A stretch of DNA of 64,000 nt from Capitulum mitella (Eukaryota > Arthropoda > Thecostraca > Pollicipedomorpha > Pollicipedidae). The stretch lies in NCBI GenBank assembly GCA_030062745.1, contig CP099839.1, positions 30,537,904-30,601,903 of the forward strand, given 5' to 3'. Below the pieces are notes generated by a model. It saw nothing but the letters and a program-made list of their open reading frames with translations. It searched no databases and had not been told where the DNA came from. Shown here piece after piece: positions 2,722 through 57,000 of this stretch (the stretch's first letter is position 1; the number at the start of each line of letters is the position of its first letter). The position numbers and the translations under genes were made by a program.

Positions 2722-3752
2722 CCCTATTCCTGGCACGGAGCTAGCCGAATCAACGTCTTTCTAGTCAACGCCCTGTTGAAGACGAAAAGAAAATGGCTGC
2801 CAAAATTAGTGTGTTTAAAATAGAACCTAAAACTTTATATGTGTGTATAGATAAATAGCTGGGCAGACATGAAAACATAACTTTGGTAGTATAAAATCAC
2901 TTTATAACGTCAGACCAAGGTCAAAAGTTAAAATTTGCTCTTATGCAATAATTCTGTTGTTGTTTTCCCAAATGCCAAATCCGGAATTTGTTTGACATGA
3001 AAAGTGCCCTCTACTCGTGTACTAAGTTTCAGGTTGATATCAGGTTGGGTCACGGAGCTATGACTTAAAATGTCAATGAATGTTATATCACGACAGACGT
3101 AAAATGGGATTTCAGAGATAAATTTAAATGTTTGGAAACATTTTTAAACGGTATGGATTGACCTCAAGACTATTCCATGTGACTCAAAGGCCATTGGGGG
3201 TCATTTAAGGTCAGAGGTCATAAGCTAACCTGATGAACATGTGATCATTACAGTTACCCCTTCTTCATGTCCTTGGCACCGACTATGCTAACATTATACA
3301 AACAGTTAAATACCATTTGTACTTCTTCAGCATAACTTGACTAGTAAAAGCTAAAAAAGTGCTTTAAATTTCTTATCAATGTGGTTTTTGAAAAACCAGT
3401 CCTCCCATTTTTGAAATTTTGTGAATGCCTACAAATTTCCTTTAAATTTAAAAACTACTGACTAATGGCAAAAGTTCGCTCTCGATTCATGCCAGTTGTA
3501 TCAAATTCGGTTCATAAACAGCAAAGCTACAACATGTCCAAAAATTCCCCCCATTTTGACTTTTGTGCACCCTTTTAAGATTTTGAAAACTTTTTTGGCT
3601 TTTTGGAAAACATTTTACAAAATGTTGTGTACGTCATGGTGAACCAATTGCTGTTTGTTGCGATGAAATCAGATCAATAATTCTCAAGATTTCATGGGGA
3701 CCGAATCCGCCTCCCCTGACGGGCTATACCGTCAAGCCCTCTGGGAATGGGG
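2722..3752 (-). repeat. TTAA-flanked element, family E, copy E2
   Basis: This copy is flanked by TTAA (2718-2721) and a decayed TTAC (3753-3756). The ends CCCTATTCCTGGC and, in reverse complement, CCCCATTCCCAG are the family E inverted repeats. The body aligns in order with copy E1 (for example GCCAAATCCGGAAT near 2972, TTGTTGCGATGAAATC near 3655). It contains an AGGTCAGAGGTCA direct repeat with 1-bp spacing near 3210. No open frame of note. Confidence 0.8.
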
Positions 3753-3756
3753 TTAC

Positions 3757-7850: not shown

Positions 7851-7854
7851 TTAA

Positions 7855-9063
7855 CCCTAGTCCCGGAGGGCTAGACGGTATGGCCGATTCCCAGCAGGGG
7901 GGGGGCGGATTCGGCCCCCCCTGAGATCTCGAGAACTACTTGTCCGATTTCATCGCAACAAACGGCAATCGATTTGCCGTGAGGTGAACTACATTTTTAT
8001 AGAAAGAAATTTTCAAAATTTTGAAATTTGTGGATACAGGGGGGCAAAAATGTCAAAATGGGGGGTACTTTTGGACTTCGTATAACTCCGTTGTTTATGG
8101 ACCGATTTCGATGAAACTGGCATGAATCGAGAGATTATGAATAGGGCTTTTACCATGGGTCCGCAAATCTGAAATTTTGAGAAAATTCGTGGGCGTTCAC
8201 AGGGTTTCAAAAATAGCAGGATTAGTTTCCTAACAACTGGATGAACAAAAGAGGCAAACACCCTTTTTTGGCTCTGCTAGTCATGTTATACTAAAGAAGT
8301 ACAAATCGCATTACAATGTTTGTATAATGTTAGCATAGGCGGTGCCAGAGACATGAAAAAGGGGGAAATGTCATGGTCACACGTTTCTCCGATCAACTTG
8401 TGACCTTTGACCTTAAATGACCTCCAGTGACCTTGGAGCCACTTGGAATGATTTTGTGTGCAGTTAAGATTATCTGAAAACGTTTTGAATAATTTGAATT
8501 CACTCTGTTTTAGAAATTCCATTTCCCGGCTATTGTGGCAATGGGTACGCGCACTGACATTTTAGGTCATAGCTCCGTGACCCAACCTGATATCAAGCTG
8601 AAACTTGGTACATAAGTAGAAGGCACCCTTCTACGTCATATGTCTTCCGGGTTTGGCATTTGAAAAAAACTGCGCCGAAATTATTACGAAAAAACAAATT
8701 TTGACTTTTGACCTTGACCTGACCTTGTAAAATAACCTCAGGTAAACAAAACTACATCTGCACATGGCCCAACTATTTAGCTATACATCAATATAAAGTT
8801 TTAAGTTCTATCTTAAAAACTCGATTTTTGGCAGACATTTTCCTTTTACCCTTAACATGGCCAAAAATGGCATGAGGTGCCCCCCAAAAACGTTGCCTGA
8901 CTCCGCCCCTGAGCAAAGTGGAATTTTGAAATTTTGTCACAGCACGTAGAAAGAATAGCTAGGAAAAGTCACCAAGTTTCGTGAAGCTGCGTTAAAAAGC
9001 CTGGAATTGGCAAGCAAAAAACCCGAGGGGGGGCGGATTCCGCCCCCCCTGCCGGGAATAGGG
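7855..9063 (+). repeat. TTAA-flanked element, family E, copy E3 (1209 bp, best-preserved ends)
   Basis: TTAA lies on both sides (7851-7854 and 9064-9067). The ends are CCCTAGTCCCGG and, in reverse complement, CCCTATTCCCGGC. Just inside each end is a G-rich/C-rich self-complementary block (GGGGGCGGATTCGGCCCCC near 7902-7920; GGGGGGCGGATTCCGCCCCC near 9038-9057), so each end can fold as a hairpin. The length, TTAA and CCC-start fit a non-autonomous piggyBac-type element. Two clusters of TGACCT half-sites lie at 8401-8433 and 8709-8725. Confidence 0.85.
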
Positions 9064-9067
9064 TTAA

Positions 9068-21599: not shown

Positions 21600-24500
21600 G
21601 GTTTGTCCTGTCAACACAAACCATTATCTCCACGTGTGAACCAGGGGCAGGTCTGTGAAGAGAAGTCATCTCCCCTGCGTTAAGTTTTTTTCTCCTGTGA
21701 AGTTCACCTTTTATCGCAGTAACCCCGTGAGTCGATCGCAGATCGACTTCTTTTTAATAAGTCAGAGTCTCCTGTACTTTGAAAGGCGGCCCATTACCAA
21801 AATATTTGACGGGTATTTTTCCGACCATAAAACGATTTCACTGGAGATTGCAGTGAATCAAGCTGAAACAGGCAAATCGTAATGGAAGATTCACAATGCA
21901 CTTTTAAAAGAGAATGCAGACGTTTCGGCCAAAAATAATGTGCATTATTCAGGAGAATGGCGCAGAGGGGGCGAAACGTACCACGTTGCTTGAGACGATA
22001 CTCTGCGTCCTGCGTGGTGAAATGATCTAGTACTCTGCGCGAAAGGAGCGTGAAAGAAACGAGAAATTCGAAACTATTAGTCAACAAACAAATGAACTGA
22101 CTGATACCGAACAGGCACACTCCGTCGACTCCCAAGCGCTATTAGCCTCACTTTATGAGAAACGAGATGACTTGGTCGAAACGATGACGAAAGTAAATGT
22201 TTCATGCCAAAGTAAGGAGGAGACATCTGGCCGAAAAAAGCACGGCCTACTTCCACGGACTCCAAAAGCGCGAAGGGCGACAGAATACGTGTCGTTCTAT
22301 GTTAATGACCTACTCGAAAAGTGAGCATGACCTGCTAAATAATAGAAAGGAAAACATGTCAACTGAATGCCAGTATTTCTACTACAAACTTCATGAGCAG
22401 AAAACAGTAGATCCCGTACTTGTCAACAGATTCTGCTACGGTCCCCCGGTAATAACAACAGAACAGCGCACGGTGTGTGACAGGGAGATCGGTATAAATG
22501 AGTTGAGCCTGACCTTTTTTTCCATGAAAGATGGCTCTTCACTTGTCCTAGTGGATACACAGCTGAGTTTTATAAAGTGTTTTGGCCGGAATTAAAAGGT
22601 TTGGTACACGGAGCAATCAATGAAATTTTCACCTCTGGCTTCATGCCGCAGAGTATTAGCAGTACCGTGACGACTCTCATACACAAACGAGGCAAAGATA
22701 CTAAGCGTATGGAAAACCTGAGGCCAATCAGTCTCCTCAGTGTCTTGTACAAGTTAATAACTAAAACGTTGGTCAGGCGGTTGAGCAATGTTGTTGGCAG
22801 CGTGATAGACAGCGACCAAACCGACTTCATAAAGGGCTGTTATATTGGGAAGTGTGCGCACAGTCCTTGATCTAATAGAATACTGTACTGAAAACGATAC
22901 GAGTGGACTACTTGTATGCTATGACATGTAGAAAGCTTAAGATTCCGTCAGTTGGGAATATTTAAAAACCGTCATAAGAAACTTTGAATTTGGGAAAAAC
23001 GTTCAGAAATGGATGAACATATTCTACGGCGATGAATCGGGACCAGCTCCATACGCAAGAGTGCAGATCTACAAATCGTTGTCCACACCCTATCAGATAC
23101 GAAGGGGACTGAGGCAGAGATGTTCCCTCAGTTGTTATCTGTTCTTATTATCTGTTGAGCCTCTCTTAATACAAATTAGAGAAAACTTAAATGTACGGGG
23201 GTTATCGATTGGCACAGTAACTCTGAAAACCGTGGCTTGTGCAGACGTCACAGTTCTTTTGGACGATTCGTAATGCTCCCTGAAGGCATGTTTGGACGTC
23301 TTTAGCGATTTCGAATGTGCCTCAGGGCTCCAGTTAAGCCTTCAGAAAATCAAAGCCATGTGGATAGGAAGCGACGCCTTTGGCAGAGAGCGCCCGCAAA
23401 ACGATGCCGGGCTAACCTGGACAAGAGGCCCAGTTGAGATACTCGGTGTTAAAATAGGTCAAGCATCACATTGTAATATTGTCGAAATGAATTACACATA
23501 AAAGATACATGCCGTGGAAAGACATCTCAATGCATGGTTACGGAGGAGCCTCACACGCTTTGGAAGAGTCTACCTGATTAAATCCGAAGGGATCTCGCAG
23601 TTAACCTATCTTATGTCCGTCATCCCACAACAGGAAGCAGACATGATGGAAAGTATGGGAAAAAATATCGCTCCATTTTATATGGAGGAGTAAGCGGGAC
23701 AAGATTAAAAGGGCTGTTCTAAAAAAACAGCATAAAATGGAGGGCTTAAAGTACCCGACATTGCAACGACTACAAAAAGTTTGAAAGTGGCATGGGTGAA
23801 ACGTTACTTAAAGCAACCGCAAGCCAAGAGGCGAGCGGCCGTCATACATGTGCTCTCTATGCAAGGAGGCACATCAGCATTGGAGTGCTGTACGGACGAC
23901 AAGCAAATAGAAATGCACATAAAAAACGTATTTAGGGGGAAACTGCCAAAGCCTGGAGAACAGCAACTATGCAGAATGATTTAGAGGCCGAAGAAATATT
24001 AAGCCAAGTCCTGTGGCTGAACAAGCACATTCGTCTTGAGCGCCACCCTAATATTCCTCAGACAAGGCTGCAACAAATAGGCATTGTACGGCTAAAAGAC
24101 ATACACGATTCTGATCACAGAAAGCTCCTTACTCCCAACCAGATGGCAGCCAAATACGAAATCCACCCGATGCACAGCCTTGCTCTGTTGCGATCGTTGC
24201 CAGCTGAATGGAGGCGCAAATTAGAAAGGCACAAGCCGAGAGTACCCGTAGAAAATAAGGCCATGGAAGACATGCACAAGGTACAAAATGTGTCAAATGG
24301 TCATCCTGTAAGATATTATCCGCCATGGAGTCGCCCAGAGTCACAAGAACGCTGGATTTACGAACTGCGATTAGGCCCGAATTTTAATTGGACAAACGTC
24401 CATACTAGGATTTACGAGACTACTGACGACAAAACGTTAAGATGGGTACAGTTTAGATGTGTCCACAGGGTTACATCTACCAACAGGCTTCTTTATATAT

Positions 24501-25027
24501 ATGGCCTAAGAGAATCAGATAAACGCCATTTTTGTCCCATGTACAGCGAAGGCATCTTACATCTTTTCTGGTGTATCTTACATCTTACATCTTTTCTGTC
24601 CCAAAAGAGGCTTTTTTGGAGAATGTGTTTCAGTTTGCTTAATGTCCCAGCTCTGGGCAAAAGTGATGTCATCCTCGGAGTCAGCCGGTCAGCCGGGTCC
24701 CCAAAAAATTCGAATGAAATGATACTGCTAGGAAAAGCATATATATGGGAATTCAGAATAAAAGACACAGTCCTCAACGTGCGCGTCTTTGTCAAGAAGG
24801 TACTGCAGTATCTCAAAATTGAGAAATACACTAGTACTATCGACGGAAGTAGTGAAAAATACCGTAGTAGATGGGAAAGTATCGAAGCGCAACTCGAAGG
24901 GGAACTGTTGGGATAGGGTATAGGAGTCCATCAATGATCTCCATTGACATATCGGTGCGTCACGCAGCGCTGTGCGCGTACTGATGTTGTCTATGAGACG
25001 TCTATGTCTATGTCTTCGATGACTATA
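21600..25027 (+). pseudogene. Degenerate LINE (non-LTR retrotransposon), L1/Tx1-like
   Basis: Pieces of one retrotransposon protein lie in order in different frames. 21655-21882 encodes the end of an APE-type endonuclease (SRSQIDFFLIS, then SDHKTISLEI). 22197-22595 is a linker with EKSTAYFHGLQKR. 22577-22870 has the reverse-transcriptase motif ENLRPISLLSVLYKLITK. 22854-23273 holds the first catalytic Asp region, interrupted by two stops (near 22928 and 22937), then IRRGLRQRCSLS and CADVTVLLDDS. 23969-24916 is the C-terminal part with a decayed Cys/His finger (HFCPMYSEGILHLFW). The ADD catalytic doublet reads AD-V. The 3' tail ends in TCTATG repeats (24998-25012). The 5' end is truncated within the endonuclease. 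It is inactive. Confidence 0.88.
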
Positions 25028-31309: not shown

Positions 31310-31315
31310 TTTATT
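31310..31315 (-). terminator. Poly(A) signal AATAAA, candidate for the PAM2/hendecad gene
   Basis: The minus strand reads GCACAATAAATC here, the only AATAAA I find on that strand between the stop codon (32078) and 31300. It would give a 3' untranslated region of roughly 750-800 bases. The untranslated stretch includes a run of five TGACCT words (31558-31590, on the plus strand). Confidence 0.45.
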
Positions 31316-32077: not shown

Positions 32078-32409
32078 CTACATCGCCTCCACCGGGTGGT
32101 GGTCCACGCCGTTGCCGTTCTCTAAGCTGCCGGACTCGGGGTGGTGCCCGTTGGCCTCGGTCGCCCGCTTGTCAGCGAATTCTGTCGTCGAGGCGTCGGA
32201 CGTGAACTTCTCCATCCCGCCGCCGTTGCCGACTGGCGCCACTGTCTCAGCCCCGATGGCCGACGCCGCCTTCTTGCAGGCCGCCGTTTTGCCGGCGCCG
32301 ACCTTCTGGCCCGCTGCGGTGGTGGCCGCCTTCGTCCGGCCTGCTCCGGTCGCAGGGCGGGAAGGCGGCGTCTTCGTCGCCGCTCCAGGACCCGTCTTCT
32401 TCACTGTAT
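32078..32409 (-). CDS. Last exon of the PAM2/hendecad protein gene (C-terminal 109 residues)
   Basis: This frame is open to the stop at 32078-32080 and starts after a pyrimidine-rich acceptor (GCCTCCTGCCTCAG, ending 32410). The acceptor is phase 1, which matches a CA|GTGAGT donor at 34221/34220, so joining keeps the frame (total 6390 nt, 2129 residues plus stop). The peptide begins TVKKTGPGAATKTPPSRPAT and continues the Lys/Thr/Pro/Ala-rich style of the end of the previous exon. It becomes acidic and Gly/Asn/His-rich toward the end. The match in composition and phase is the main support; I see no domain. The open frame does extend upstream of the acceptor into the intron (to 32500), with a hydrophobic stretch I regard as intronic. 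Confidence 0.6.
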
Positions 32410-32489
32410 CTGAGGCAGGAGGCACACCGTAAGCGGCTGGCACCACAACGATCATACACTTACAGACAGGTAAGACAAACAAAATTAGC

Positions 32490-32650
32490 AGTGACCGCAT
32501 CCATGACGTTTTCTAACATGACACCACTACGCCCTGTTATTTTCGCAAAGCGATTTATGACAGATGGTTTTGGAAACGTGTTATGACTCTACTTGGTGGA
32601 TGCCAAAATATACACAACAAACTAATACATACCAAGCTTGCGAGCTGCAC
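32490..32650 (+). repeat. Arm 1 of an inverted duplication in the intron
   Basis: This stretch (from AGTGACCGCATCCATGACG to AAGCTTGCGAGCTGC) is the inverted partner of 33846-34034. The shared tract CACTACGCCCTGTTATTTTC continues identically into GCAAAGCGA. Arm 2 is longer, owing to extra AGTACTT-like words. Confidence 0.85.
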
Positions 32651-32726
32651 TTTTGATGAAACTGACGGAATGTGTCCTCCAGATGTCTCAATCACATCAA
32701 AAGTGGCCAAAACCTCCCATCTTTAA

Positions 32727-34148
32727 CCGTATCCCCGGAGGGCTAGACGGTATGGCCGATTCCCGGCAGGGGGGCGGATTCGGCCCCACACCCTGAGATC
32801 TCGAGAACTACACATCCGATTTCATCGCAACAAACGGTAATAGATTTCCCATGACGTAAAACACACTTTTAAGAAGAGAAATTTTCAGAATTACGAAAGG
32901 GGTGGGTAAATGAAAGGGCAAAATGAAAGGGGGCAAAACTGTGAAAATGGGGGATATTTTTGGACTTCTTATAACTCTGTCCTTGATGGACGGGTTTCGA
33001 TGAAACTGGCATGAATCGAGAGGCTATATGAGACTTTTACCATTGGTACACATATTTGAGATTTTGAGAAAATTCATGGGCGTTCACAGGGTTTCAAAAA
33101 TAGGAGGATTATTTTTTCGATGACTGAATGAACAAAAAAGACAGAACCACTTTTTCACTCCTGCTAGACATGTTATGCTGAAGATGTACAAATCGTGTTA
33201 CAATGTTTGTATAATGTTAGCACAGGCCGTGCCAGGGACATGAAGAAGGGGGAACTATCATGGTTACATGTTCTTCAGATCAACTTATGACCTTTCACCT
33301 TAAATGGCCTCCAGTGACCTCGGAGTCACTTGGGATGGTCTCTTGCGCATTTAATATTATCTGAAAACCTTTTCAATCATTTGAATCCACTCTACTTAAA
33401 AATTCCATTTTCCGGCTATTGTGATATAAGGTACAGGAACTGACATTTTGGGTCACAGCTCCGTGACCCGACCTGATATCAAGCTGAGACTTGGTACAGA
33501 AGTAGAGGGCACCCTTCTACGTCATATATATTTCGGGTTTGGCATTTGCAGAAATATCGTTTGCAAAATTATTACTATGGGACCAAATTTTGACTTTTGG
33601 CCTTGACCTGACCTTGTAAAATGGCCTAAGATAAATAAAATTGTATTTGTATTTTGCCTTACTATTTAGCTATACATCCACATCAAGTCTGAAGTTCTAT
33701 CTTAAAAACACTATTTTTGACAGTCATTTTCCTTTTACCCTCAACAAGGCTAAAAATGGCCTTAGGTGCCTCCCAAAAACGTTGCCTGACTCCGCCCCTG
33801 AGCAAAGCAGAATTCCGAAATTTTGTCACAGTACGTAGAAAGAATACGCAGCTCGCAAGCTTAGTATGTACTAGCTGTGTTGTATGTATATATTTCAGCA
33901 TCCACCAAGTACCCATAAGTACTTGTAAGACTCAAGTACTCATAAGACGTTTCTGACCATCTGTCGTAATTCGCTTTGCGAAAATAACAGGGCGTAGTGG
34001 TGCCATGTTGGAAAACATCATGGATGCGGGCACTAGGAAAAGTCACCAAGTTTCGTGAAGCTGCGTCGCGTCAAAAACCCTGGGATTGGCAAGCAAAAAA
34101 AAAAAAAAACTAGTGAGGGCGGATTCAGCCCCCTTGCCGGGAATAGGG
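32727..34148 (+). repeat. TTAA-flanked element, family E, copy E4, inside the intron
   Basis: TTAA at 32723-32726 and 34149-34152 flanks ends CCGTATCCCCGGAGG and (reverse complement) CCCTATTCCCGGC. It is co-linear with E3 except for a 189-bp insertion at 33846-34034, between AGAAAGAAT and AGGAAAAGTCACC. Excluding that insertion it is about 1233 bp, close to the 1209 bp of E3. It lies antisense to the host gene. If the intron is not removed, translation of the gene runs into the E4 end and stops at 34033. Confidence 0.88.
33846..34034 (-). repeat. Arm 2 of the inverted duplication, inserted in element E4
   Basis: Absent from E3, this 189-bp insertion is the reverse complement of the nearby intron segment at 32490-32650. 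Because E3 supplies the state without insertion, the direction is clear: sequence was added to E4, most simply copied from the neighbouring intron. Confidence 0.8.
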
Positions 34149-34220
34149 TTAAGCCGACATCGTCCACACGTACCAGCACGTGGTCACGAATCGGACATCC
34201 GTCGACTCCACAAAACTCAC

Positions 34221-37200
34221 TGGGGACTCTGGTGCCGAAGCCGATGCCGGGGGTCCTGGTGATGCTAGCGGCCGGCCGAGACGTCAGAGACGCCGAGATC
34301 TTAGTGTTGACTGCCTCTTTGGCCACCTTGGTGCCGGGACGGCGCGCCGGCGAGCCGTTGGTGGCGGTGGCGCCAGTGCTGCGGCTCGTGGTCGTCGTCG
34401 GTCGGCTCCCGAAGGCGGGCCGGGTGCTGGAGGGCGCCGCCGGCCGCGTGCTCAGGGTGTTCGGCCGCGCCGGCTTGGCGGCCGGCTTCTGCTCAGACGT
34501 CTTCACGTCCGACTTGGTCGGCGACGGCGTCTTCTTCAGCAGGCTGGTCCTGGACGCCGGCGCCGCCCGTGGTGTGGGCGTAGTCTTGGCAGCAGCGGGC
34601 GAGGGGCGCGGCTTGGGCGCCGTCTTGGTGGCGCTCGTCGTCGGCTTCGTCGGAGACGCGGCAGACGTGGTCGGCGTTCTCGACGTGGTTCGGGTGGAGG
34701 TCGGCCTGCCGGTGGCCGATGCGGGGGACCTGGGCGACGTGGCGGAGGTGGTGGACGCCCTGGCCGTGCCGAGGGTCGACGTCTTGGACGGCGCGGAGGC
34801 CGTGGTCCGGGCGGAAGTAACTGTGGACGGTCTGGCCCGCGGCGTCGTGGTGGTCGTCTTAGCCGCGGCGGTGGCGCTGGCAGGCCTGCCGGTGGGTGAC
34901 TTGGCCGCTGGACCGGTGCTCGGCTGGGACAGGGCCTTGGTGGTCGGCTTCGCTGTCATTTTCGTCGCCAGTTTTCCGGGGGCGCTCGCAGACGCCTTCG
35001 CCGGCGGTCGGGCGGTGTCGGTCTTCCCGACCGTAGTCTTCTTCAAAGGCTCTTTGCCGGTCTTTTTCGTCAGTGACGCTTTCTTGTCGACTTTGGCGGC
35101 TTCGGGCTTGGTTGGCTTCTTGGTTACGCCAACAGCGGAAGCCACTGCCGCGGCTCCAGCCGCGACGGCGGCGGCGGCGGCGGCTACAGCAGCCGTCAGA
35201 GGCGATTCTGTCTCCTGTTTCTCCTCCTCCTTGGCAGCACTTTCCGTCTCTGGTGGCGCTGGGGTTGGCTCCGCCTCCACCACCGGCTCGACTTTCGGCT
35301 TGGCCTCCACGGCGGGCTCCGGAGCCACAGCCTCCACAGAGGGCTCCAGGGTTTCGACCTCTGCAGCGGGCTCCGGAGCCATAGCTTCCACAGAGGGCTC
35401 CAGGGTCATGGCTTCCACAGCGGGCTCCGGAGTCGTGACGTCCAAAGCGGGCTCCGGAGTCTTGGCCTCGGCAGCCGACTCCGCCCTTGCCGCCGGCTCC
35501 GGAGGCGGCAGCTCGGACAGCAGCGGCTCGGATGGCTTGTGGATGGGCGTGTGGTACACGAATCCGCCGGGGACCGCCTCCTCGCTCTCGCGCTCCAGAG
35601 CGCGCTCCATCGCCTCAAAGTGCTCCTGTTCCGGACTGAGAATGTCGGCGCTGTGGTGCGAGAACGTCTGCATGTCTTCATGGAAGGACGCCTGCAGCAG
35701 CTCGTTGGACTCGATCGGGTCCAGCTCGGGCTGCTCGGGCGACTCGGCCATCTCGCGGCGCACCGCCTCCACCTCGCTCTGCTCGATCGTCTCGAACTCG
35801 TCCGCGGCATCCAGGCCGGCCGGCGCCAGTTCGCTCAGCCGGTCGGCGGCTGAGTCGGCGGCCGACTCCAGACCGCTGGCGACCTTTTCGGCCATCGGCG
35901 CCAACGCGTCGGCCTGCTCCTGCAGGAATCCGCCAGCGCGGTCCAGCATTTTCTCGACCGCTGGTGAGATGTGCACGTCGGCGGCCACCTCCCGCTCAAA
36001 CAGGCGGTCCGAGACGTCTTCGGCCGACTCCTGAAGAGAGTCAGCGGCAGTGTCTGCCGCCTGTTTCCCGGAGGCGGCTAGATCCTCGGCGGGAGATACC
36101 ACTTCCTCGTGGACGAAATCCTTCGCCGCTTCAGCGTGGCTTTCGGCTTCGTCTGCCGCAGTTTCAGCCATGCCTTCCACAAACTTCTCAATGTCGTCCG
36201 CGGCTTTACCAAGGTCGTGGGCCAGCTCCTCCGTGTCCTGTTTGATGGTCTCAGGCACCTCCGTGACGCTGGGCGCATCCGGCTCTTGGTCGTGGGCCCC
36301 GACCTTGTCGGCGACCGTCTCGTAGGCCGAGCTCACGCTCTCAGTGACGTAGTCTGCGGCGGAGGAGGCCGCGCCGGCGGCCGAGTCGACGGCTGACTGC
36401 AGGCCACCTACGAGGCTGCCCATCAGCGACTGTCCGGCGGACTGGGACTCGTCAAAGGCCTCCTCGGCGGCGTCAGTCGCAACCTCAGCGGCCTCCTCAG
36501 CCTCCTCGACGGCACGCTCCCCGGCTTCAGTCACGCTCCCGGACACAGACTCCACAGAGTCGGAGACGGCCTTGCTGAAGAAGTCGGAGCCTTCCTGCAC
36601 GCCCTCAGCGGTCGCGCCGTACGCCGAGCTGAAAGCGTCGGCAGCGGTGTCGTACGCTGAATGGAGATGCTCCTCACTTCCTTCGGCGCCGGCAGCCAGT
36701 TTCGCCTCCAGTGAGGCGGCGTTCTCGGCAGCGGCGTCCAGGCCGGTCTGTAGGCTGCTTTCCATTTGGTCGACGGCCTCCACCGCCTGCTCGCGGGCCG
36801 AGTCCAGAGTCCGCGAGGCCTGGTCGGCGAAGGAGTCGGCGGCTGCGTCCACCTCTGCCGCAACAGAGTCAGCGAGCTCACCTGCTCGGTCGGCAGCAGA
36901 CTCATAGGCGTCGGCCGCCTCAGCCGCGGCAGAATCCGCAGAACTCTGCGCCTTGTCGGCGGCGGATGACTCCAACACGGTTTCACCCTCGTCGACGGTC
37001 GACTCAACGCCAGACTTCATCTTGTCGGCGCTGAACTCGACATCGGCCTCCACCTCGTCCCGGATGAACTCCATCGCGCGCTGTCCCTCGTCAGCAGCAC
37101 TTTCCAGAGCGCCGGCCGCCTCGGCGTGGAAGGCCTCCGCCTTGCTTGCGGCTGAGTCAAGCACAGCTTCCCCTTCACTAGCGGCAGATTCGTCGACGTC

Positions 37201-40200
37201 TGCTGTCTCACTAGCGGCGCGATCGAAGGCGTCCTCAGCTTCGTCCGCTGCTGCCTGGAGCGCGGACTTACCCTCGCTAGCGGCCGACTCCAGCGCGCTC
37301 TCCGTCTCTCTGGCAGCCGTATTGAACGCGTGGGCCGCCCCGCTGGCGGCCGAATCGATGTGAGCCCCCAACAGGCTGGCGGTGGACTCCAAGGTCGCGT
37401 CCGCGTCCGACGTGGAGGTCGCGGAGGTCTCGAGCGCCGCTTCGGCCCGCTCGGCGTGCGACTCGACCGCCTCGGCAGTCGTCTCGGCGGTGAACTCGAC
37501 GTCGTCGCGGATCTCTTCGGACGCCGCCTCGGCCGATTGGACGCCGGTTTCGAACGCATCGGCTACGGCGGCGTAGGAGGCAGCCACGTGCTCACGGGCC
37601 GAATCGAGCGCCGTCTCCGCGCCGGCGCTCACCGCCTCGGCCGCCGAGCCCAGCTCGCAGGCGGCCGCATCGTACGACGAGCCGACGAAGTCGCCGACCG
37701 CCTCGAAAGCGCCGCCGAGCCGCTCCTGCACGGGCTCGAACGCCAGGCCGGCGTGCTCAGCGGTCGCCTCGTCGGCGAGCTCGTCCACCTTTTCAGCCGC
37801 CTCGTCGGCGAGCTCGTCCACGTTCTCCGCCGCCTCGTCGGCGAAATCGTCCACCTTCCCGGTCGAAGTCTCGTACATGTCGGAGGCCCGCTCGGCAGCG
37901 GCGTCCATCAAGCGCCCAGCGTCGGCGGCCTTGTCGGCGGTCGCGTCCTGGGCGGTCGCGACTGCCTCCGCCGCCGCATCATCGGCCGTCTGCAGTGGAG
38001 CGGCACCGAACTCGGGCACCGCGTCCAGCGCCGACGTCACCGACTCGAACGCCGAGCCGAGGCTCTCGCCGGCCGACTCAAGAGCCGAGCTGGCGGTCTC
38101 TGCAGCCGTACTGAACGCCGAGGCGGCCGTCTCGACGACCGACTCCCGGGTCGCGTCGGCAGCCGAAATCGCCTCGTCGGCGCCGGCGCCGGCCCGCTCC
38201 GCCATTTCGTCGTAGGCGTGCTGGGTTCCCTGCTCGGCCTCCTCCGCATTCTCTGCCGCCTTGTCGTAGACGATGTGCGCGCCCTCTGCCATTTTGTCGG
38301 AGACGGTGTCTGCTGCTTCAGCTATTCTGTCGCGGCCGTCCTCAGCCACCTCGGCAGTCTTGTCGTAAACATCTTCGGCCGTCTCCGCTGATTTGTCGTA
38401 GGCTTGATGGAAACCCTCTTCCGCCTCAGCTGCCTTCTCTTCCACCTTTTCGTGTGTAGTGTACGCGCCTCCAGCCAGTGTGTCGTACGCAATATCTGCA
38501 GCATCTGCCATTTTGTCGTGGGCAGTCACGGCAAAGCTTGGCATTTTGTCGTAAGCCGTTTCGGCTGTCTCGGCCGATTTCTCGTAAACGTGGTGGAGTT
38601 CCTCTTCTGCCTCCTCCACTTCCTGTGCCGTCATGTCCTGGACGATGTCCATCTCCTCAGCCATTCTGTCATAGGCCGTCTCAGCAAGTTCCGTGGCTTT
38701 GCTGTGAGCAGCTTCAGTAGTCTCCGCCGCTTTGTCATATGCGTGTTGAAGTCCCTCTTCCGCATCCGCCGCCTTCTCAGCCACCTTCTGATGTGCGGTG
38801 TCTGCGTCCTCAGCCATTCTGTCCTGGGCGGTCTCAGCAAACTCTGCTGTCTTGTCGTAAGTGGCTTCAACTGTCTCTGCTGATCTGTCGTAGACTTCAA
38901 AGAGACCCTCTTCTGCCTCTGCTTCCTTCCCTTCCGCCTTCTCGTACGTGGTACCTACACCTTCCGCCAGTGTGTCGTATGCGGTATCCGCAGCGCCAAC
39001 CATTTTCTCGTAGGCAGTCTCAGCGAGTTCCGTCATTGCGCCTTGGGCAGTCTCAGCTGTCTCCATCGATTTGTCGAAGGCGTGTTGGAGTCCCCCTTCC
39101 GCCTGCTCCGCCTTCTGCGCCACATTTTCATAGGCAGTGTCTGCGCCCTCAACGAGTCTGTCCTGAGCAGTTTCAGCAAGCTCCGCAGTTTTACGGTACG
39201 TAGCTTCGGCTGTCTCTGCCGATTTGTCCGATGCAGTTTCCAGGCCCTGTGCAGTTTTGTCGTAAACCATCTCAGCACCCTGTACTGTTCTGTCATAAGC
39301 AGTTTCAACGCCCTCTACCGTCTTGTCGTACGCAGTTTCAGCGCCACGGGTAGCCTTGCTGTCGACAGTTTCGGCTCTTTCTGTCAGCAAGTCGCTGGCA
39401 GTGTCAACTGCCTGCCCATAGGTGGTTTCGGCAAATTCTGCAGACTTATCGTGCACGGAATGCAGCTCCTCCGCCGTCTTGTCGTAAACGGAATGAAGTC
39501 CCTCTGCAGTCTTGTCCACTGCACTCTCAGTGACCTCCGTCGTCTTGTCGTAAGCGGAATACAGGCCCTCTACCGTCTTATCCACTGCACTTTCAGTGAA
39601 CTCCACCGTCTTGTCGTACGCGGAATGCAGGCCGTCTGTCGTCTTATCCACTGCACTCTCAGTAAATCCCGCCGCCTTGTCGTAAGCGGCATGCACTCCA
39701 TCCGCTGTTTTGTCGTAAGCGGAAAACAGTCCTTCCGCCGACTTGTCATAAGCGGAATACACCCCTTCCGCCGTCTTGTTCACTACAATTTCAGCTCCTT
39801 CCGCCGTCGTGTCGTAGGCTGAGGACACACCCTCCGCCACTTTGTCGTACGCGGAATACAGTTGCTGTTGCGTCTTGTCGGCGGTGCTGTCCGCCTCCTG
39901 CGCCGCCCTGTCGTAAGCCGTCTCCGGGCCGCCACTCTCGCCGGCGAGTCTGGACACGGCGTCGGTGGCGGCGGCCACCTTCTCGCCCACCATGTAGGCG
40001 GCCGAGTCGAGCCCGCTGCCGAGCTGGTCGAGCAGACCACCGCCGCCGGGCTCCGGCAGTTCCGTCTCGAAGACGGCGCCCGAGGGCACGAACTCCGCAG
40101 CGGCCGGGTCCAGGTGCAGAGAGTCGCCGCCAGCGAACGGCGTCGACTTCAGCTGGCCGGGAGTGAATTCGGGCGCGCTCGGGTTCAGCGGCGAGCCCGG

Positions 40201-40278
40201 CTCGTCGCCGTTCCGCGAGCCGTTGGCGCCGTGCGGCCCGTCGTGGCCGTTGCCAGACGCGAACGGGTTGAAGCTCAT
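34221..40278 (-). CDS. PAM2-motif, hendecad-repeat (LEA/perilipin-like) giant protein, first coding exon
   Basis: The exon encodes 2019 residues; the start has a strong context (GCCGCCATGA). Residues 30-40 (LNPSAPEFTP) and 55-65 (LDPAAAEFVP) fit the PAM2 motif, which docks to the MLLE domain of poly(A)-binding protein; the second has Asp for Asn. Residues 122-700 are about 42 eleven-residue repeats, consensus YDKTAEGxxSA, with six 18-residue units (for example HQKVAEKAADAEEGLQHA). Residues 700-1600 are Ala/Glu/Asp-rich and helical-looking, with more 11-mers. Residues 1606-1670 repeat a 9-mer (TPEPAVEAM). Residues 1695-1718 are an Ala-rich hydrophobic segment. Residues 1719-2019 are basic and Lys/Thr/Pro/Ser/Ala-rich. 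No signal peptide is seen. Hendecads of this type in LEA, perilipin and synuclein form amphipathic helices on membranes or lipid droplets, or coiled coils; the basic tail resembles microtubule- or RNA-binding tails. Function is inferred; I do not recognise the family. The readable frame runs on to 34033, but the last ~60 codons are intron and transposon. Confidence 0.88.
35251..35461 (-). repeat. 27-bp coding tandem repeat (9-residue EP repeat)
   Basis: The coding strand encodes TPEPAVEAM, TLEPSVEAM, APEPAAEVE, TLEPSVEAV and APEPAVEAK in series (residues about 1606-1670). The repeat is Pro- and Glu-rich and likely extended. It lies between the acidic helical region and the Ala-rich segment. 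Confidence 0.85.
38180..39915 (-). repeat. 33-bp coding minisatellite (hendecad array) with 54-bp spacer units
   Basis: On the coding strand, 33-bp units (one per 11 residues) repeat from residue 122 to about 700. From residue 382 on, every third to fifth unit is a 54-bp (18-residue) unit with GLQHA/GLFEV/ELHHV-type ends. The 18-mers begin near residues 383, 445, 497, 548, 609 and 671. Units are diverged in sequence but keep length in multiples of 3, so selection on the protein is the likely cause of the regularity. Confidence 0.9.
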
Positions 40279-50258: not shown

Positions 50259-52744
50259 CACGGATGCGATAACGCTATCGCAGCACATCGCAAAACAGTC
50301 CGCCGTGCATTTATCGACCCATGTGGCGCGCTGCGGACTGAATCAAATTACGTAACGTTCCGCGTTTTGACCGTGACCAGAATTCGAAACGAAAGTGGAC
50401 GTTTCACGACGGTGCGTGCAGGAAGCGGCAACGCTCAGCCGACGCCGGCCTTCGCTCGGCGCTTACTCGGACCGATACTAGGCCGGGACAGTCGACCAAT
50501 CATCCTTGGAAGGTCCCGCCAACCAAGGGCGCGCAGCCACTCGACCAGGCAGCAGCGGGCGAGGACCTCACCCGCCCTGGTGACGGTCCTCCGCCGGCGG
50601 TGGCACGAGCGTCGCCTCCCATGCTGCGCCACTCTAGCTGCTCAAAGACCGTGTACCGTGCGCTCCACGCGGCAGACAAGCTGAGACGTCACGGCCTGGA
50701 CGGTCAAGTGACGTACGCCACTAGCGTCGCCCGGACCGGACCTCCCACGTGACCCTGTCCTTCCGGCTCAACCGTGACAACGCCACCCGAGCACCCTAAT
50801 GAGGGCGGCGTGAACTGTCGTGATGGCGGTAAGAGCGAGCTCCCACAGCGAACCGGGTCACGGCTGCGTCTGGTGGCCGCGCCGCCGGCCGTCCTCTGGC
50901 CGCGCACGCGACCGCCGCACGCCACACGGCAGCCGATCGTGCCGATCACGTGCCTCACGCACGGCCGAGCGCTCATGGGCGGTTACAGATGTCCCAGAAC
51001 TCACAGCTCTGCTCTTACAAATTCTGCCGTCCTCGCGCGCAGGCTGGTGATGGTCGCGGATCCCGCCGCGTCGGCAGTGAGAGAGACGGAGATGTCATCA
51101 GTAGATGACTTGTCATCAGAGCCCGTCCTGATGACGCGACGTTACGTCAACGGAGAGCGATGATAGAGCCGGCACGGCGGCGCAGTCTGCGGCCTAGAGC
51201 CGTTGCTGATCCCCGGCCCAAGTCGGCCGCACCGGCAGAACTTCCAGCGCGGCAGGCGGACCGCGGGGACGAGCTAACTGGCTTTCCGGGACAAGGGGGG
51301 GGGGAGGGAATTCTGATGCAACCTCAGGCCAGATGTGCAGCTTCGTCATCAGCTGGTGAGACGTAATGGACGCTGTGGTATTACCCATGACTCCTCTGTC
51401 CCAGAGCGGGCCGGGTAGAACAACAAGCTGGTGACGGCTAGCGATGGCGGCCACGATGGAGTCATCCTCAATTCAAACGGAACAACACGCATTGACGAGT
51501 TTCCGAAGCACGCTTGGGTACGGTTCTGGCGTGGTGAAACGTGCGTGACGCCGCATATGTACAACATTTTGGGGGCCGACCAACAGCTGGATTGACTGCG
51601 CCATAACCAGAAGTTTCAGACACAAACTGTGTGTGTAGCTAACATCTAAAAATATGAGAAACACGTTTTCGTTTGCTCTGTTTTCTCGCCTCAACAAGCA
51701 TTGCAATGTTTTCATATAGCGCAATCAAAATGCCAACATCTCCACTAGATGACAGGCTAACAAGACATCGTCAACAAACGCAGCACGAAAAAATCCTTCT
51801 AGCTAGGTTTATCCAAGAGTGTGGCTTAGCTGCACGGTGCAAAATTGGAAACAATCTTTTGTTCGCACAGCCGATCTCACGCGTTCCCTTTCGTATTAAA
51901 ATCAGAAGCACTGAGTCCGCAGCTGTCTTCTTTAGTAATCATTATGATTGTCATACAAATCATTAAGTAACAGGGATTGCTAAAAGTGAATTAAAACACT
52001 CATTTCTATTCAACGTTTGCGCAACGAAAAGCACGTACATTAAATCATTTGACAGAACTGTTCAGTTCAAAAGAAACATGTGCAATAAAAAAGACGATTA
52101 CTGAGTGGACGATGAAAGAGGTTCAGTATGAAGAAGTATTCACCATTAAAAATGTCTTAATGGACCAAAAGACTCGGCATCAACAACATTAAGCTCAGGA
52201 TCCGCGCAAAAAAATTGATCTCTGGCAGTGCAATTCCAATTCTAGTTGTAAAAGCAACGGCTTACGTCCGAGGGCATCACTAAGACGTGTCTGGTCAATG
52301 CCAAACGAAACAAGGAGTGTCATACACAACAAAACCTGAACGAATAACCTATCATCATATCAACCCATTGCAGAGGCTCCTTCGCCGACCACGAGCCTGG
52401 CGACACCGCACCAACCACGACGAAGCTCAGCACCACCTCAGTCGACCACCATCTGCTCCGGACGCAACTGCAGCACACACTGCGGCCAGCACGGCTCCTA
52501 TCACAGCACGGGCCGAACGGGAGCATCACCTGCGGACACCATGTCACAACAGCATCTGAGGCGGCGGCGCCGGCGCCAGCGCCAGTCCACCTGTCCTTCA
52601 TGCTGGCTGGGCAGCCCTTCATGGTGGCCGGCCGCGGCGCGCTGCGGTCGCCGCCGCCGCCTGACCACGGCGCCGTTCCCAGACGCGTCGTGACCCGGCC
52701 CGGCTGCCTAATGGCGGCGGCGGCGCCGCGTGTCACGGCCCGCG

Positions 52745-52745
<1 letters not shown>

Positions 52746-52775
<30 letters not shown>

Positions 52776-52782
52776 GCCGCCG
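52746..52782. repeat. (CCG)n microsatellite
   Basis: Twelve CCG-type triplets with one CTG near the start. Confidence 0.95.
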
Positions 52783-54008
52783 ACTCGCCGCTCCGACGCC
52801 GGACGGCGTGCCGCGCGCGCGGCCGACGAGCAAAGTTCAGTCGCCTCCCCCGCCTTCGGCGGCTGCGAGGCGGCACACCTGGGACGCGAGCCGCTAATGT
52901 AATCACGCCGCCGCGCCGGATGCAACAATAAACGGAGCGCGAGATTGGCCAGAGCTCGGCTCTGAATTAGCCGGCGTCGGGTGCCGGCTGCCACTGCGAG
53001 GCGGCTCGCTGAGTCAGCGCTGATTCGGCTCGCCCGCCGTGCCGCGGATCTGCCTGCAGAGGCTGGCCGAGCATCGCCCAGTTAGTCACCGCCGGCCCGT
53101 CCGCGGCCTTTTAAACAGCCAACACCAGGCTTCGCTCTGGAAAGGGAACCCAGTTACCAGGAACAGCCGAGTTCTGGTGTCCGACCGGCAGTCCGTAAAC
53201 GATCAGTTTCTGTATGGCGGTATCTGTTCACAGTGACACGGTATTTCAGGGATCGTTAGACTACAACGTAAAGCATAAAACGTAGAAATGTGGGACAAAA
53301 ATAGCTGGGCACGCAATATATTAGAAAAGAGGATTAATTTTCGGAATTCAGAACAAGTGTGGAGGCCACGGCTCTGATAACTTGAGCTCACCCTTCCCTC
53401 GTCCCACTTCGGCTGTCGATGACATTAAACAGAGTTAATGACATGGCATCCAGGTCACGCCATCAGACGTCAAGACGCCTCAGACATTAGATACCATCTG
53501 CCACGCATCAGACGCCTGATGTCAGCCGTGGCTCGTCTCAAACCGGCCATGCTCTGTGTCACTGTGCTCACCACGCTCCAACCTCGTAAAGCTACGTCTG
53601 AACTCAGTTCACCCATCACGTGCCCCTGGGAACATGAATTCGTCACTGGGAATTAAACGACTCCCTCCAGTGGCTTTGTAATTCGAAACATCATCCGTAA
53701 ACATCGTCATCTGCCCGACGGGCGTGGCAAGACGGCCAACGAATTTCGGATAAATCTTCCCACCAGGCGACCCCCAGTGGCGGACGGCGAGTCCATCCTC
53801 CAACCCCATCTTCACACCAGCCGACCCCCGGCGACGGCCGAGCGCGTCGCCGAGCGTCGACCCCTCATCCGTTTCCGGTCGACTGCTCGCCGCCGGCCGG
53901 GCCGCTACCCGCGCCGCGCGGCCGCCGCCCAGCCATTCGGCATACATGACAAGACAGGAGCACTCGGGCCGAAATGCCGTCCGTTTCCGGCCGGCCGGGC
54001 CATTAGAG

Positions 54009-54032: not shown

Positions 54033-57000
54033 CGCGGCCTCCGCCGCTCTGCGCGCCGTCCCGTCGCCGGCCGCTCGGCCGCTGCATAACGCCGCTACCA
54101 GAGCGCGGCTGACGGAAATGTCAGGTAAATCGGCGCGGCGGTCACGGCGCACCTCCGCCGGCCGGCGCGGCCAATCGCGCCCGACCGCGCCACCGACGAG
54201 ACGGACGAGTGGCCGCCAGCCGGAAAAGAGACTCGGGCAGAACCCGTCGCGTCGCGGGCCCTGCGTAACGTCATCCCCCCTCCGGCCATGTGATGGCAAC
54301 ACCTGGCTGGCCGCCCCACGCGGCCCGACGCGGACACCGGCTCACGTTGTTTGTCGTGCCCCCTCTTCCCTTCCCGAGCGATCACTGGTGGAACGACGCG
54401 ACCGGGAACCTGCCATCGATCGGGCCATTTAAAGCGGCCGCGGGGCCGGATACGGTGGGGAGAGGGACAAACGTGGTGGTCAGGCACCAGGCGACCCGAA
54501 ACCAAACACGGCCGAGCGTCACAGATCAGCGCACGTACTTCGGACATTCGGCTCCGGCCGGTCAATAGTGATACTAATCTGGCAGGCCTCTGAGTAAGAC
54601 AGCCAGAGTGATGGTTATGACCGCAGGGGACGCGATGCAAATGGACACGAACAGGAAAAGACAGGGCAGTGAAACAAAACAGAAGCGCAGAATGGGGCCG
54701 CATGCGTTTACACAGAACAATGTCATAAATCAACAGGACGGTGCAAGGTGCTTTCAGCGGACACAAATGTAGAAAATCCATCGCGTTCACTCCAGCGGTG
54801 TGCATCACGAACGACCGAGATATATCAATAAGCGAAAATATGCTGTTTCGGACGAGACTGCAATGAATTATGCGTACGAAATCGGGCGCCACATCCCTCC
54901 CGGAAGTCGGCGTTCCCATTCCGCAGCCGGCTAGTGACCGCTTCGCGCAAGGGTCGTGACGCCGGACATCGGCCGCGTTGATTTGCGTTCTGACGGCGTA
55001 CGACCAGACCGGTCGACCAGTTAAGCCCTAGATGGAGCCGCGCCGGCCGCTGGCGTGGGGGGGAGTGAGTCACCGGCCGGCTAGCGATTCGGCGACGCCG
55101 CGAGGAGGGGGAAGGGGGGGGGGTCGGTGGCCTATCGACTGGTAGCGGCCTCGTGGTGCCCAGCTGCCGCCAGTTGTCAGAGACAGAGGCTGGATGGACG
55201 TCAGAGGTCACCTTCCAGACGGAACGAGCAGGATGAGCACCGCTGCTTTTTCTGCCGTTGCTTTTATCCTCTGAGCGAACACTAACGAGACTGCACCGCT
55301 GCCATCGTTACGTTCATGCTGTGTCGTGACTTTCCCCTTCCGATTGTTCGTGAGAGTCTGACAGGAAGACGGCAGGCGGTTCACAGTGAAACTGTGCGGC
55401 TGGCTGGCGGCAGTGCTCGCCGCCGAACGTTTGCATCCCGCCAGGCACCCCGCCCGTCCTCTCGGATACCTTGCAGTCAGTGGGCCGGCGGCGAGGGTCC
55501 CCGGGGGCGCCTCTGCGGCCTGGGGAGGCTGTTGCGTCATGGCGTGACGGCCGCATTAGTGGCGGATACTGCAGAGGGCGTGGCGTGTCGTGAGGCCGGC
55601 AATGTTTGCGTGGCCCACCACGTTATCTCCAAACATGTCAACACCGAGCCGGTGCGCGCGGCCTCGTTCGCGGCGAGCCGAGCTCGGCAGGGGCGCCGCA
55701 GGCGGTGTCCACAAACCCCTGCCCCTAGCCCTGTGCGCCACGTGAAGAGACATCCACGGCCAAACGGGTCGCGCGACGACTGCCAGGATGAACAGTGACC
55801 AGGTACCGGTTGTCGCTCTGGTCATGCGGCGAAGCGTCCGATGGGTTCAGAGACACGGTCCGGACCGGCTCTGGCCCGGAAACCCTACCCGCAGGCTTCC
55901 GACCCGGCACGGCGCGCGACTGCAGCATCACGACGACCGCCGCCGACCCGGCCAGACCAGACGCCATCACCTTCGCTTCCGGTCACGTGATCCGCGGTCA
56001 CGCCCTACCCCCCCCCCCCCGCAGTCTGCAGAGACTGAGCTCCTCAGCAATACGACCCCCGGCCGGTGGACGGCGCCTGCGCTTCGGAATGCGAGCCGGC
56101 TGGCCGCGGCCGACGCGGGGCGGCAGCCGATAACAGACCGGGCTGCAGCCTGCATGCCGACCGGCGCCTGGAGACGGGCGACGGGCGCCGGCGGGCGACG
56201 GCCCCGCGGCGGTGGCGCTCCGGCGCCGCGGCTTGCATGCAGCCGGCCGCGTGCAGCCCCGCCCGGACCGCGCCGCTCTCACCGCGGCCGGCGGCCGCCG
56301 AGACCGCGCCGCTCAGGCGGGCGTGTCGGCGGCTTGACGGCCGCCGCCACCGCCGCCGCCAGCGTTCTGGCCGACGGCGCGACAGACGCGGCCGCGCGAC
56401 CGCCCGGAATGCGGCGCCGCGGCCGACGGCTTACCCGACGCCATGCGCGGCTACGCGGCGGGTGGGGCGGCCGTCGACGGCGCGTGCGGACCGCTCGGCG
56501 CACGGCAGCGGCCGCGCGCGCCGCTCCCGCAGCCGGCCTTGCCGCCGCCGTCCAGCGAGAACGTGGGGCGCCGATGAGTCAGCCGGCGTCTGCGGCGGCG
56601 GCCGCCGGCGGCGCCACCGTCGCCGTCTGGCCGGCTGCCCGCCACCGCCTGACTCACGTGGACCGACGCTGAAGCCGGCTGCCCGACCGGAAGGCGCCGG
56701 CCGACAGCTGCGGCCTGCATCATGGCCGACGTGTGGCCGACCGGGTGGCATCAGTTCGCCCCGCGGCCGCAGCCCATCGGACCGCTGGCCGGGACCGGAG
56801 GAGGCGGGGGGGGGGACTCCCTGCTCCACCTCCCGCCAAGCCGCCTCACTCAACAGACCGCCACCGTCTGTTTAGCCGTAGCTAACAATGTTCAAATCAT
56901 GCGTTTTTATGGCAACGTATCTAGGCGAAAGAACGTAATCAAACATGACATGGCGATGTAAATATTAAAGGGCGCCACCGATCCAGTTTACGCAAACGTG

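Follow-up and report, generated by a model that had tools for sequence, protein, structure and literature searches.

A giant predicted protein of Capitulum mitella joins two PAM2 motifs to a long hendecad array and a basic tail: a possible tether of poly(A) messenger ribonucleoproteins

The window analysed here is a 64,000-nucleotide stretch of Capitulum mitella DNA (NCBI GenBank assembly GCA_030062745.1, contig CP099839.1, positions 30,537,904 to 30,601,903 of the forward strand), whose minus strand carries a gene for a giant predicted protein in which two PAM2 motifs are followed by a very long array of amphipathic eleven-residue repeats (hendecads) and by a basic tail. Judged from its sequence, the locus is a real gene with a probable second coding exon at 32409-32078, and the predicted two-exon product has 2,129 residues. 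Its features, all on the minus strand and in window positions, are the following:

34221..40278, minus strand: coding exon 1, 6,058 bases from the ATG to the splice donor CCA/GTGAGT, residues 1-2019 plus one base
40261..40269, minus strand: the single NPF tripeptide, residues 4-6, in a protein that begins MSFNPFASG
40159..40188, minus strand: PAM2 motif 1, LNPSAPEFTP, residues 31-40, found by pattern match and by Pfam
40084..40113, minus strand: PAM2 motif 2, LDPAAAEFVP, residues 56-65, found by pattern match and scoring 13.7 bits alone
38182..39915, minus strand: hendecad block with a lysine stripe (YDKTAEG type), residues 122-699
38209..39099, minus strand: super-repeat part, residues 394-690, with six 7-residue inserts and lags of 51 and 62
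36019..38181, minus strand: acidic hendecad block without the lysine stripe, residues 700-1420
35059..36018, minus strand: acidic, proline-bearing linker, residues 1421-1740, with the last weak hendecads and then a tandem repeat
34222..35058, minus strand: basic tail rich in T, A, P, S and K, residues 1741-2019, continuing in exon 2
32410..34220, minus strand: proposed intron, made up mostly of a dispersed repeat; the two arms of an inverted pair lie at 32490-32648 / 33848-34034
32078..32409, minus strand: proposed coding exon 2, 110 residues, in matching phase with exon 1, with a TAG stop at 32080-32078
31310..31315, minus strand: AATAAA polyadenylation signal, with no other AATAAA or ATTAAA from 30000 up to the stop codon

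The minus-strand frame begins with the ATG at 40278 and stays open for 2,081 codons, up to a stop at 34033; its part from 34222 to 40278 makes up 2,019 of them. The ATG lies in the context GCCGCCATGA, with an in-frame TAG 10 codons upstream, and directly after 34221 stands GTGAGT, a fair splice donor with 7 of 9 consensus bases. The open reading frame proposed in the initial annotation was confirmed in its start, and its end at 34221 is the last base before this donor. A 3' end by read-through to 34033 was rejected, as 34033-34152 belongs to a dispersed repeat (match at 8959-9067), and for this reason the coding part of exon 1 is taken to end at 34221; that the frame stays open beyond this point is, we think, chance. 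Joining 34221 to 32409 keeps the phase; the residues of exon 2 run from NTVKKTGPGAATKTPPSRP to DHHPVEAM, followed by TAG. The first 62 of these are rich in A, T, G and K, with 10 K/R versus 1 D/E, and resemble the preceding tail; the exon extends this K/T/A/P-rich basic region and ends in a short, acidic or neutral C-terminus. Counting against exon 2 is its acceptor, with 11 of 15 pyrimidines before CAG, which falls below the threshold used for listing acceptors (at least 12 of 15). The list held 40311, 33123 and 32938, and the first of these could form the border of a 5' untranslated exon just upstream of the ATG. Exon 1 itself contains two good donors, 37272 and 36882, with 8 of 9 consensus bases, and no acceptor there reaches 12 of 15 pyrimidines.

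Over residues 122-1330 the sense frame has no stop in 1,209 codons, while between 9 and 60 stops occur in each of the other five, with 9, 31 and 18 in the antisense ones. Long antisense open reading frames, such as that of 659 codons at 34055-36034 (plus strand), which covers the tail and the linker, were rejected as probable shadows of GC-rich codons. We also rejected the idea of another, partial gene copy elsewhere in the window, since a tblastn search with four pieces of the protein gave 6 rows, 0 of them outside the gene. The dispersed repeat of the intron, about 1.1 kb long, occurs at 1-1004, 2770-3755, 7851-9067 and 32723-34152, the three other copies being 71-82% identical to the intron copy; 32723-33846 aligns with 7851-8957. 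The arms of the inverted pair are 74% identical.

Both PAM2 motifs were found with the sequences and at the residues given in the initial annotation, and their starts are 25 residues apart. The published comparisons here and below are drawn from excerpts of the cited papers. The two motifs fit the consensus xxLNxxAxEFxP (PMC9249222), motif 2 with D in place of N, and both hold the Glu, Phe and Pro described as essential (PMC5118804). The pattern L[ND]xxAxEFxP gave 2 matches among the 127,996 residues of the window translated in six frames, both in the gene, as did a relaxed PAM2 pattern, while the short core A.EF.P gave 4, two of them outside it. In 200,000 shuffles of residues 1-80, at least one strict match was obtained in 9 and two matches in 0, a slightly generous test, as the strict pattern allows the D that motif 2 carries; for the relaxed pattern the corresponding figures were 146 and 0. 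With the Pfam model PF07145 (PAM2, cut-off 20), the 2,019-residue protein scored 21.2 bits over one stretch and residues 1-100 scored 27.0 bits over 2 stretches, which places the N-terminus in this family. At the DNA level the motifs differ in 10 of their 30 bases, and therefore the pair is not a fresh duplication. Of the statement that these motifs bind the MLLE domain of poly(A)-binding protein (PABP), the sequence part stands, with a consensus fit and a pair above the Pfam cut-off; the binding itself is a prediction, though a likely one.

The hendecad array comprises 112 full eleven-residue units in residues 122-1553, as delimited by a phase-tracking profile, and is clear over residues 122-1420 and weak thereafter, with about 18 phase jumps along its length. 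The count of about 42 YDKTAEG-type repeats made initially covers one part of it: 40 units have D/E and then K/R at their second and third residues, 35 of them among the 49 full units whose first residue is number 700 or lower, and the array extends beyond them. At a lag of 11, residue identity reaches 0.34 in residues 120-740 and 0.26 in residues 741-1420, where the shuffle maximum has a 95th percentile of 0.143 and 0.167, respectively. The profile was trained on the same protein, which makes its scores partly circular; compared with 20 shuffles per block, they were +492 versus -212 in residues 120-740, +143 versus -100 in 741-1130, +81 versus -75 in 1131-1420 and +6 versus -41 in 1421-1560. 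In residues 1561-1740 the profile did no better than on shuffles, and no fit was obtained in the first 80 residues or in the tail (1741-2129).

Along the array the residue at position 2 is K/R in 88% of units in residues 122-393, in 83% in 394-690, in 8% in 691-1100 and in 14% in 1100-1330, and this drop after residue 690 means that the rod has two chemically different halves. The super-repeat part of the first half carries 7-residue inserts of the EEGLQHA type at 394, 456, 507, 558, 620 and 682, with spacings of 62, 51, 51, 62 and 62 residues. A spacing of 62 corresponds to 17 helical turns of 3.65 residues and one of 51 to 14 turns of 3.64, which is what a preserved straight stripe along the helix would predict. 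When the units are drawn on a helix of eleven residues in three turns, positions 10, 3, 7, 0 and 4 fall on a single face spanning about 164 degrees, on which charges are found in 3, 3, 4, 9 and 10 of the 112 units, respectively. Acids occupy positions 1, 5 and 8 in 89, 66 and 58 of the 112 units, and aromatic residues stand at position 0 in 43. In residues 122-690, lysines and acids sit on different sides of the polar face.

The hydrophobic power at 96-101 degrees in the sense frame of residues 122-1330 was 88.9, and 200 codon shuffles reached no more than 9.2; a high value (60.2) was obtained in antisense frame 0 as well, which we read as a shadow of the same codons. In the four codon blocks of the array, agreement between units one repeat apart was 0.41, 0.36, 0.47 and 0.32 at third codon positions (expected 0.26, 0.26, 0.36 and 0.31) and 0.61, 0.55, 0.55 and 0.44 at second positions (expected 0.32, 0.34, 0.31 and 0.31). 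The array is under selection as protein, plainly so in the last block (residues 1100-1420), where third positions are at expectation and second positions above it. In the three earlier blocks third-position agreement exceeds expectation, and therefore their repeats are younger and have kept some likeness at the DNA level. Net charge is negative in every 100-residue block of residues 1-1700, reaches +10 to +16 in the four blocks of 1701-2100 and is -4 in the last 29 residues, which bears out the acidic helical region and basic tail that had been noted earlier. Between array and tail, a tandem repeat of 27/54 bp lies in the coding frame at 35299-35483.

The array had also been described as LEA/perilipin-like, LEA standing for late embryogenesis abundant. 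The resemblance holds for the eleven-residue amphipathic period, which is a trait of group 3 LEA proteins, but not at the level of families. Pfam contains LEA, perilipin and synuclein models, yet none of these, the perilipin (PAT / four-helix) profile included, was listed for the whole protein at E<=1 or for two array pieces at E<=10, under HMMER filters that remove most matches above about E 0.1. The leading family was Apolipoprotein A1/A4/E (PF01442), with 84.8 bits on the 2,019 residues (E 8.2e-24), below its cut-off of 90, and this score is probably a match of periodicity. ApoLp-III came behind it, and a gp58-like phage family scored 18.5 bits on one array piece (cut-off 34.5); all of these stayed below their cut-offs. 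No Pfam family was listed for the tail at E<=10, and of the ataxin-2 set (LSm, LSmAD and PAM2) only PAM2 was listed at E<=1. Among solved structures, no sequence match was found for the 2,019 residues (E<=0.01) or for a 49-residue PAM2 piece (E<=10), and the prokaryote library NCBIfam gave none. Searches of viral contigs with a 107-residue middle piece and the 2,019-residue protein, and of genome contigs with residues 1-120, found no relative, an absence that says little as the former are viral DNA and the latter a prokaryote collection.

The statement in the initial annotation that no described family combines PAM2 motifs with hendecads agrees with searches of open-licence papers, mostly of their top-ranked results, in which PAM2 joined to a LEA, perilipin or hendecad array was not found; an annotated but unstudied group of orthologues may well exist. 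Ataxin-2 chimeras with membrane and lipid-linked domains have been reported (PMC12898128), and neither "apolipoprotein" nor "late embryogenesis abundant" occurs in the main text of that paper. Several known systems resemble the protein in part. Upa2 of Ustilago maydis is a dimerising scaffold with four PAM2 motifs that acts in endosomal mRNA transport (PMC9249222), and it shares with the present protein several PAM2 motifs, which there bind PABP on transported messenger ribonucleoproteins (mRNPs); Upa2 and Upa1, however, are fungal, carry a GWW anchor and a FYVE domain, respectively, and the excerpts mention no hendecad array. Perilipin 4 (Plin4) has a giant run of eleven-residue amphipathic repeats with asymmetric charge on the polar face, 968 residues long versus about 1,300 here, built of weakly basic 33-mers without insertions or deletions (PMC5889406), whereas the present array is strongly acidic and Tyr-bearing, contains 7-residue inserts and other phase shifts, and matches no Pfam perilipin.

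Isoform K of LEA-1 from C. elegans is likewise very long and rich in amphipathic 11-mers (1,397 residues, 61 instances of an eleven-residue motif, a predicted amphipathic helix), but PAM2 goes unmentioned in the excerpts of that paper (PMC8670023), and no Pfam LEA family was listed for the window protein. ERD15 joins PAM2 to a following acidic region and has a link with dehydration, yet in maize it measures 113-159 residues, with PAM2 and a PAE1 motif and, in the excerpts, no mention of a helix array (PMC9779859). Two PAM2 motifs per protein occur in eRF3 and in the plant ataxin-2 proteins CID3 and CID4, where, unlike here, they overlap (PMC4105795). In Unkempt, a PAM2-like motif in a disordered region is combined with a helical self-association domain, PABPC binding was lost when the motif was deleted, and dimerisation occurs through a coiled coil; Unkempt differs as an RNA-binding protein with CCR4-NOT motifs, for which the excerpts mention no hendecad array (PMC11009413).

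With the PAM2 pair at one end, a rod of up to about 1,300 residues and the basic tail at the other end, the layout is that of a tether. The protein is therefore tentatively proposed, at less than even confidence, to be a cytoplasmic scaffold of about 2,129 residues, encoded in two coding exons, that tethers poly(A) mRNPs to a cytoskeletal or condensate scaffold. The array, whose repeat anatomy can be read directly in the protein, would act as an extended, Ala-rich amphipathic helix; it might pair with itself or with another partner along its uncharged face, serving as rod and spacer, while the basic T/A/P/K tail might grip an anionic polymer, be it microtubules, RNA or the acidic array of an adjacent copy. 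The tail partner is a guess, an anionic polymer being the simplest. Taken together, these parts could concentrate poly(A) mRNPs on the cytoskeleton or a condensate, or park them there. Upa2 sets a precedent for a multi-PAM2 scaffold in mRNP transport (PMC9249222), and Unkempt is a second precedent (PMC11009413). NPF is the type of tripeptide bound by EH domains of endocytic proteins, and the copy at residues 4-6 may reflect an endosomal link, which it would fit, although it may also be due to chance.

Several observations weigh against the proposed mRNP tether. PAM2 motif 2 alone, at 13.7 bits, is below the Pfam cut-off of 20. The tail lacks [ST]xIP, and residues 1741-2129 lack KxGS, the motif of the tau-type repeat module, leaving composition as what points to microtubules; without KxGS and without a Pfam family, the tail does not qualify as Tau/MAP2/MAP4. 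PAM2 peptides of TOB1 and PAN3 hold the three key residues and showed no interaction with PABPC1 in cells (PMC5118804), and when all four PAM2 motifs of Upa2 were mutated, endosomal mRNA transport was undisturbed (PMC9249222). If the tethering proposal is true, the protein would offer a simple route for the bulk tethering of poly(A) mRNPs, such as has been studied with fungal Upa1 and Upa2, and it would suggest that LEA/perilipin-like repeats can serve a purpose outside stress protection and fat storage. A bolder form of the proposal, which we regard as speculative and on balance unlikely, would see in the protein the first representative of a giant PABP-tether family, in which a PAM2 pair, an array longer than that of Plin4 and a basic tail anchor allow one molecule to line up mRNPs on a lipid, microtubule or condensate surface, the switch from lysine-striped to all-acidic repeats setting two binding zones along one rod.

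A rather unlikely alternative is that the array is a giant amphipathic helix lying on a lipid surface in the manner of Plin4, to which the PAM2 motifs bring poly(A) mRNPs. The eleven-residue period, the uncharged face of about 164 degrees and the aromatics at position 0 in 43 of 112 units would suit this, as would the leading place of an apolipoprotein model, though below cut-off. The mean hydrophobic moment of residues 122-1500 is 0.306 (0.118 when shuffled), reaching 0.366 in residues 122-287 (Fauchere-Pliska scale, 98.2 degrees, 33-residue windows); it is within the range of alpha-synuclein (0.30) and Plin3 (0.35) and above Plin4 (0.257), an approximate comparison as the published values were made with Heliquest (PMC5889406). 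The asymmetry of lysines and acids on the polar face in residues 122-690 is likewise found in Plin4 (PMC5889406). Against a lipid surface stands the net charge, which averages about -5.8 per 33 residues and is never above -2 in windows starting in residues 121-1470, whereas the helix of Plin4 has +1 per 33-mer and, when changed to -1, was lost from lipid droplets and became cytosolic (PMC5889406). Charge balance of this kind is a trait of Plin4 and not the definition of a family, and no perilipin or synuclein family was listed for the protein. Two Thr-to-Val changes per repeat, which add hydrophobicity, rescued the Plin4 mutant, and the authors of that study consider electrostatics not essential (PMC5889406). 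Lipid binding is thus possible but disfavoured because of the strongly negative charge of the array, above all for its lysine-poor second half, and the membrane or lipid-droplet tether suggested in the initial annotation is weakened accordingly.

It is improbable that the protein is a structural rod, whether cytoskeletal, axonal or cuticular, whose PAM2-like motifs are not used for PABP. A long helical array with a basic tail would suit a filament or a protein like the microtubule-associated ones, and the sub-threshold score of motif 2 is in keeping with it; two strict matches at the N-terminus, when 0 of 200,000 shuffles gave two, speak against this reading. Quite improbable, too, is a protectant of LEA type, with an array that is unfolded in water, takes on structure during drying or osmotic stress and shields the poly(A) mRNPs or stress granules to which it is bound through PAM2. 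LEA-1 isoform K is close in build (PMC8670023), and plant ERD15, which is dehydration-induced in Arabidopsis, joins PAM2 to an acidic region (PMC9779859). On the other side, no Pfam LEA family was listed for the array pieces at E<=10. The acidic excess, the tyrosine stripe and the basic tail are not known as LEA features, which counts against a protectant. An artefact of the gene model, with the PAM2 segment and the array on separate transcripts, or a pseudogene, is very unlikely: the good donors at 37272 and 36882 and an intron that is mostly repeat DNA would allow it, but one stop-free frame runs for more than 2,000 codons, the ATG stands in GCCGCCATGA, the helix face is kept charge-free along the array, and exon 1 contains no acceptor of at least 12 of 15 pyrimidines (that of exon 2 itself has 11).

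Elsewhere in the window, Rfam gave no match at gathering score. The GC-rich region upstream contains two long open frames on the minus strand (52323-53081 and 54098-55027), for which Pfam listed nothing at E<=0.01. On the plus strand, 22197-24913 holds a broken reverse transcriptase resembling that of long interspersed nuclear elements, spread over several frames, in which RVT_1 scored 25.7 bits in one of four pieces (cut-off 29.6).

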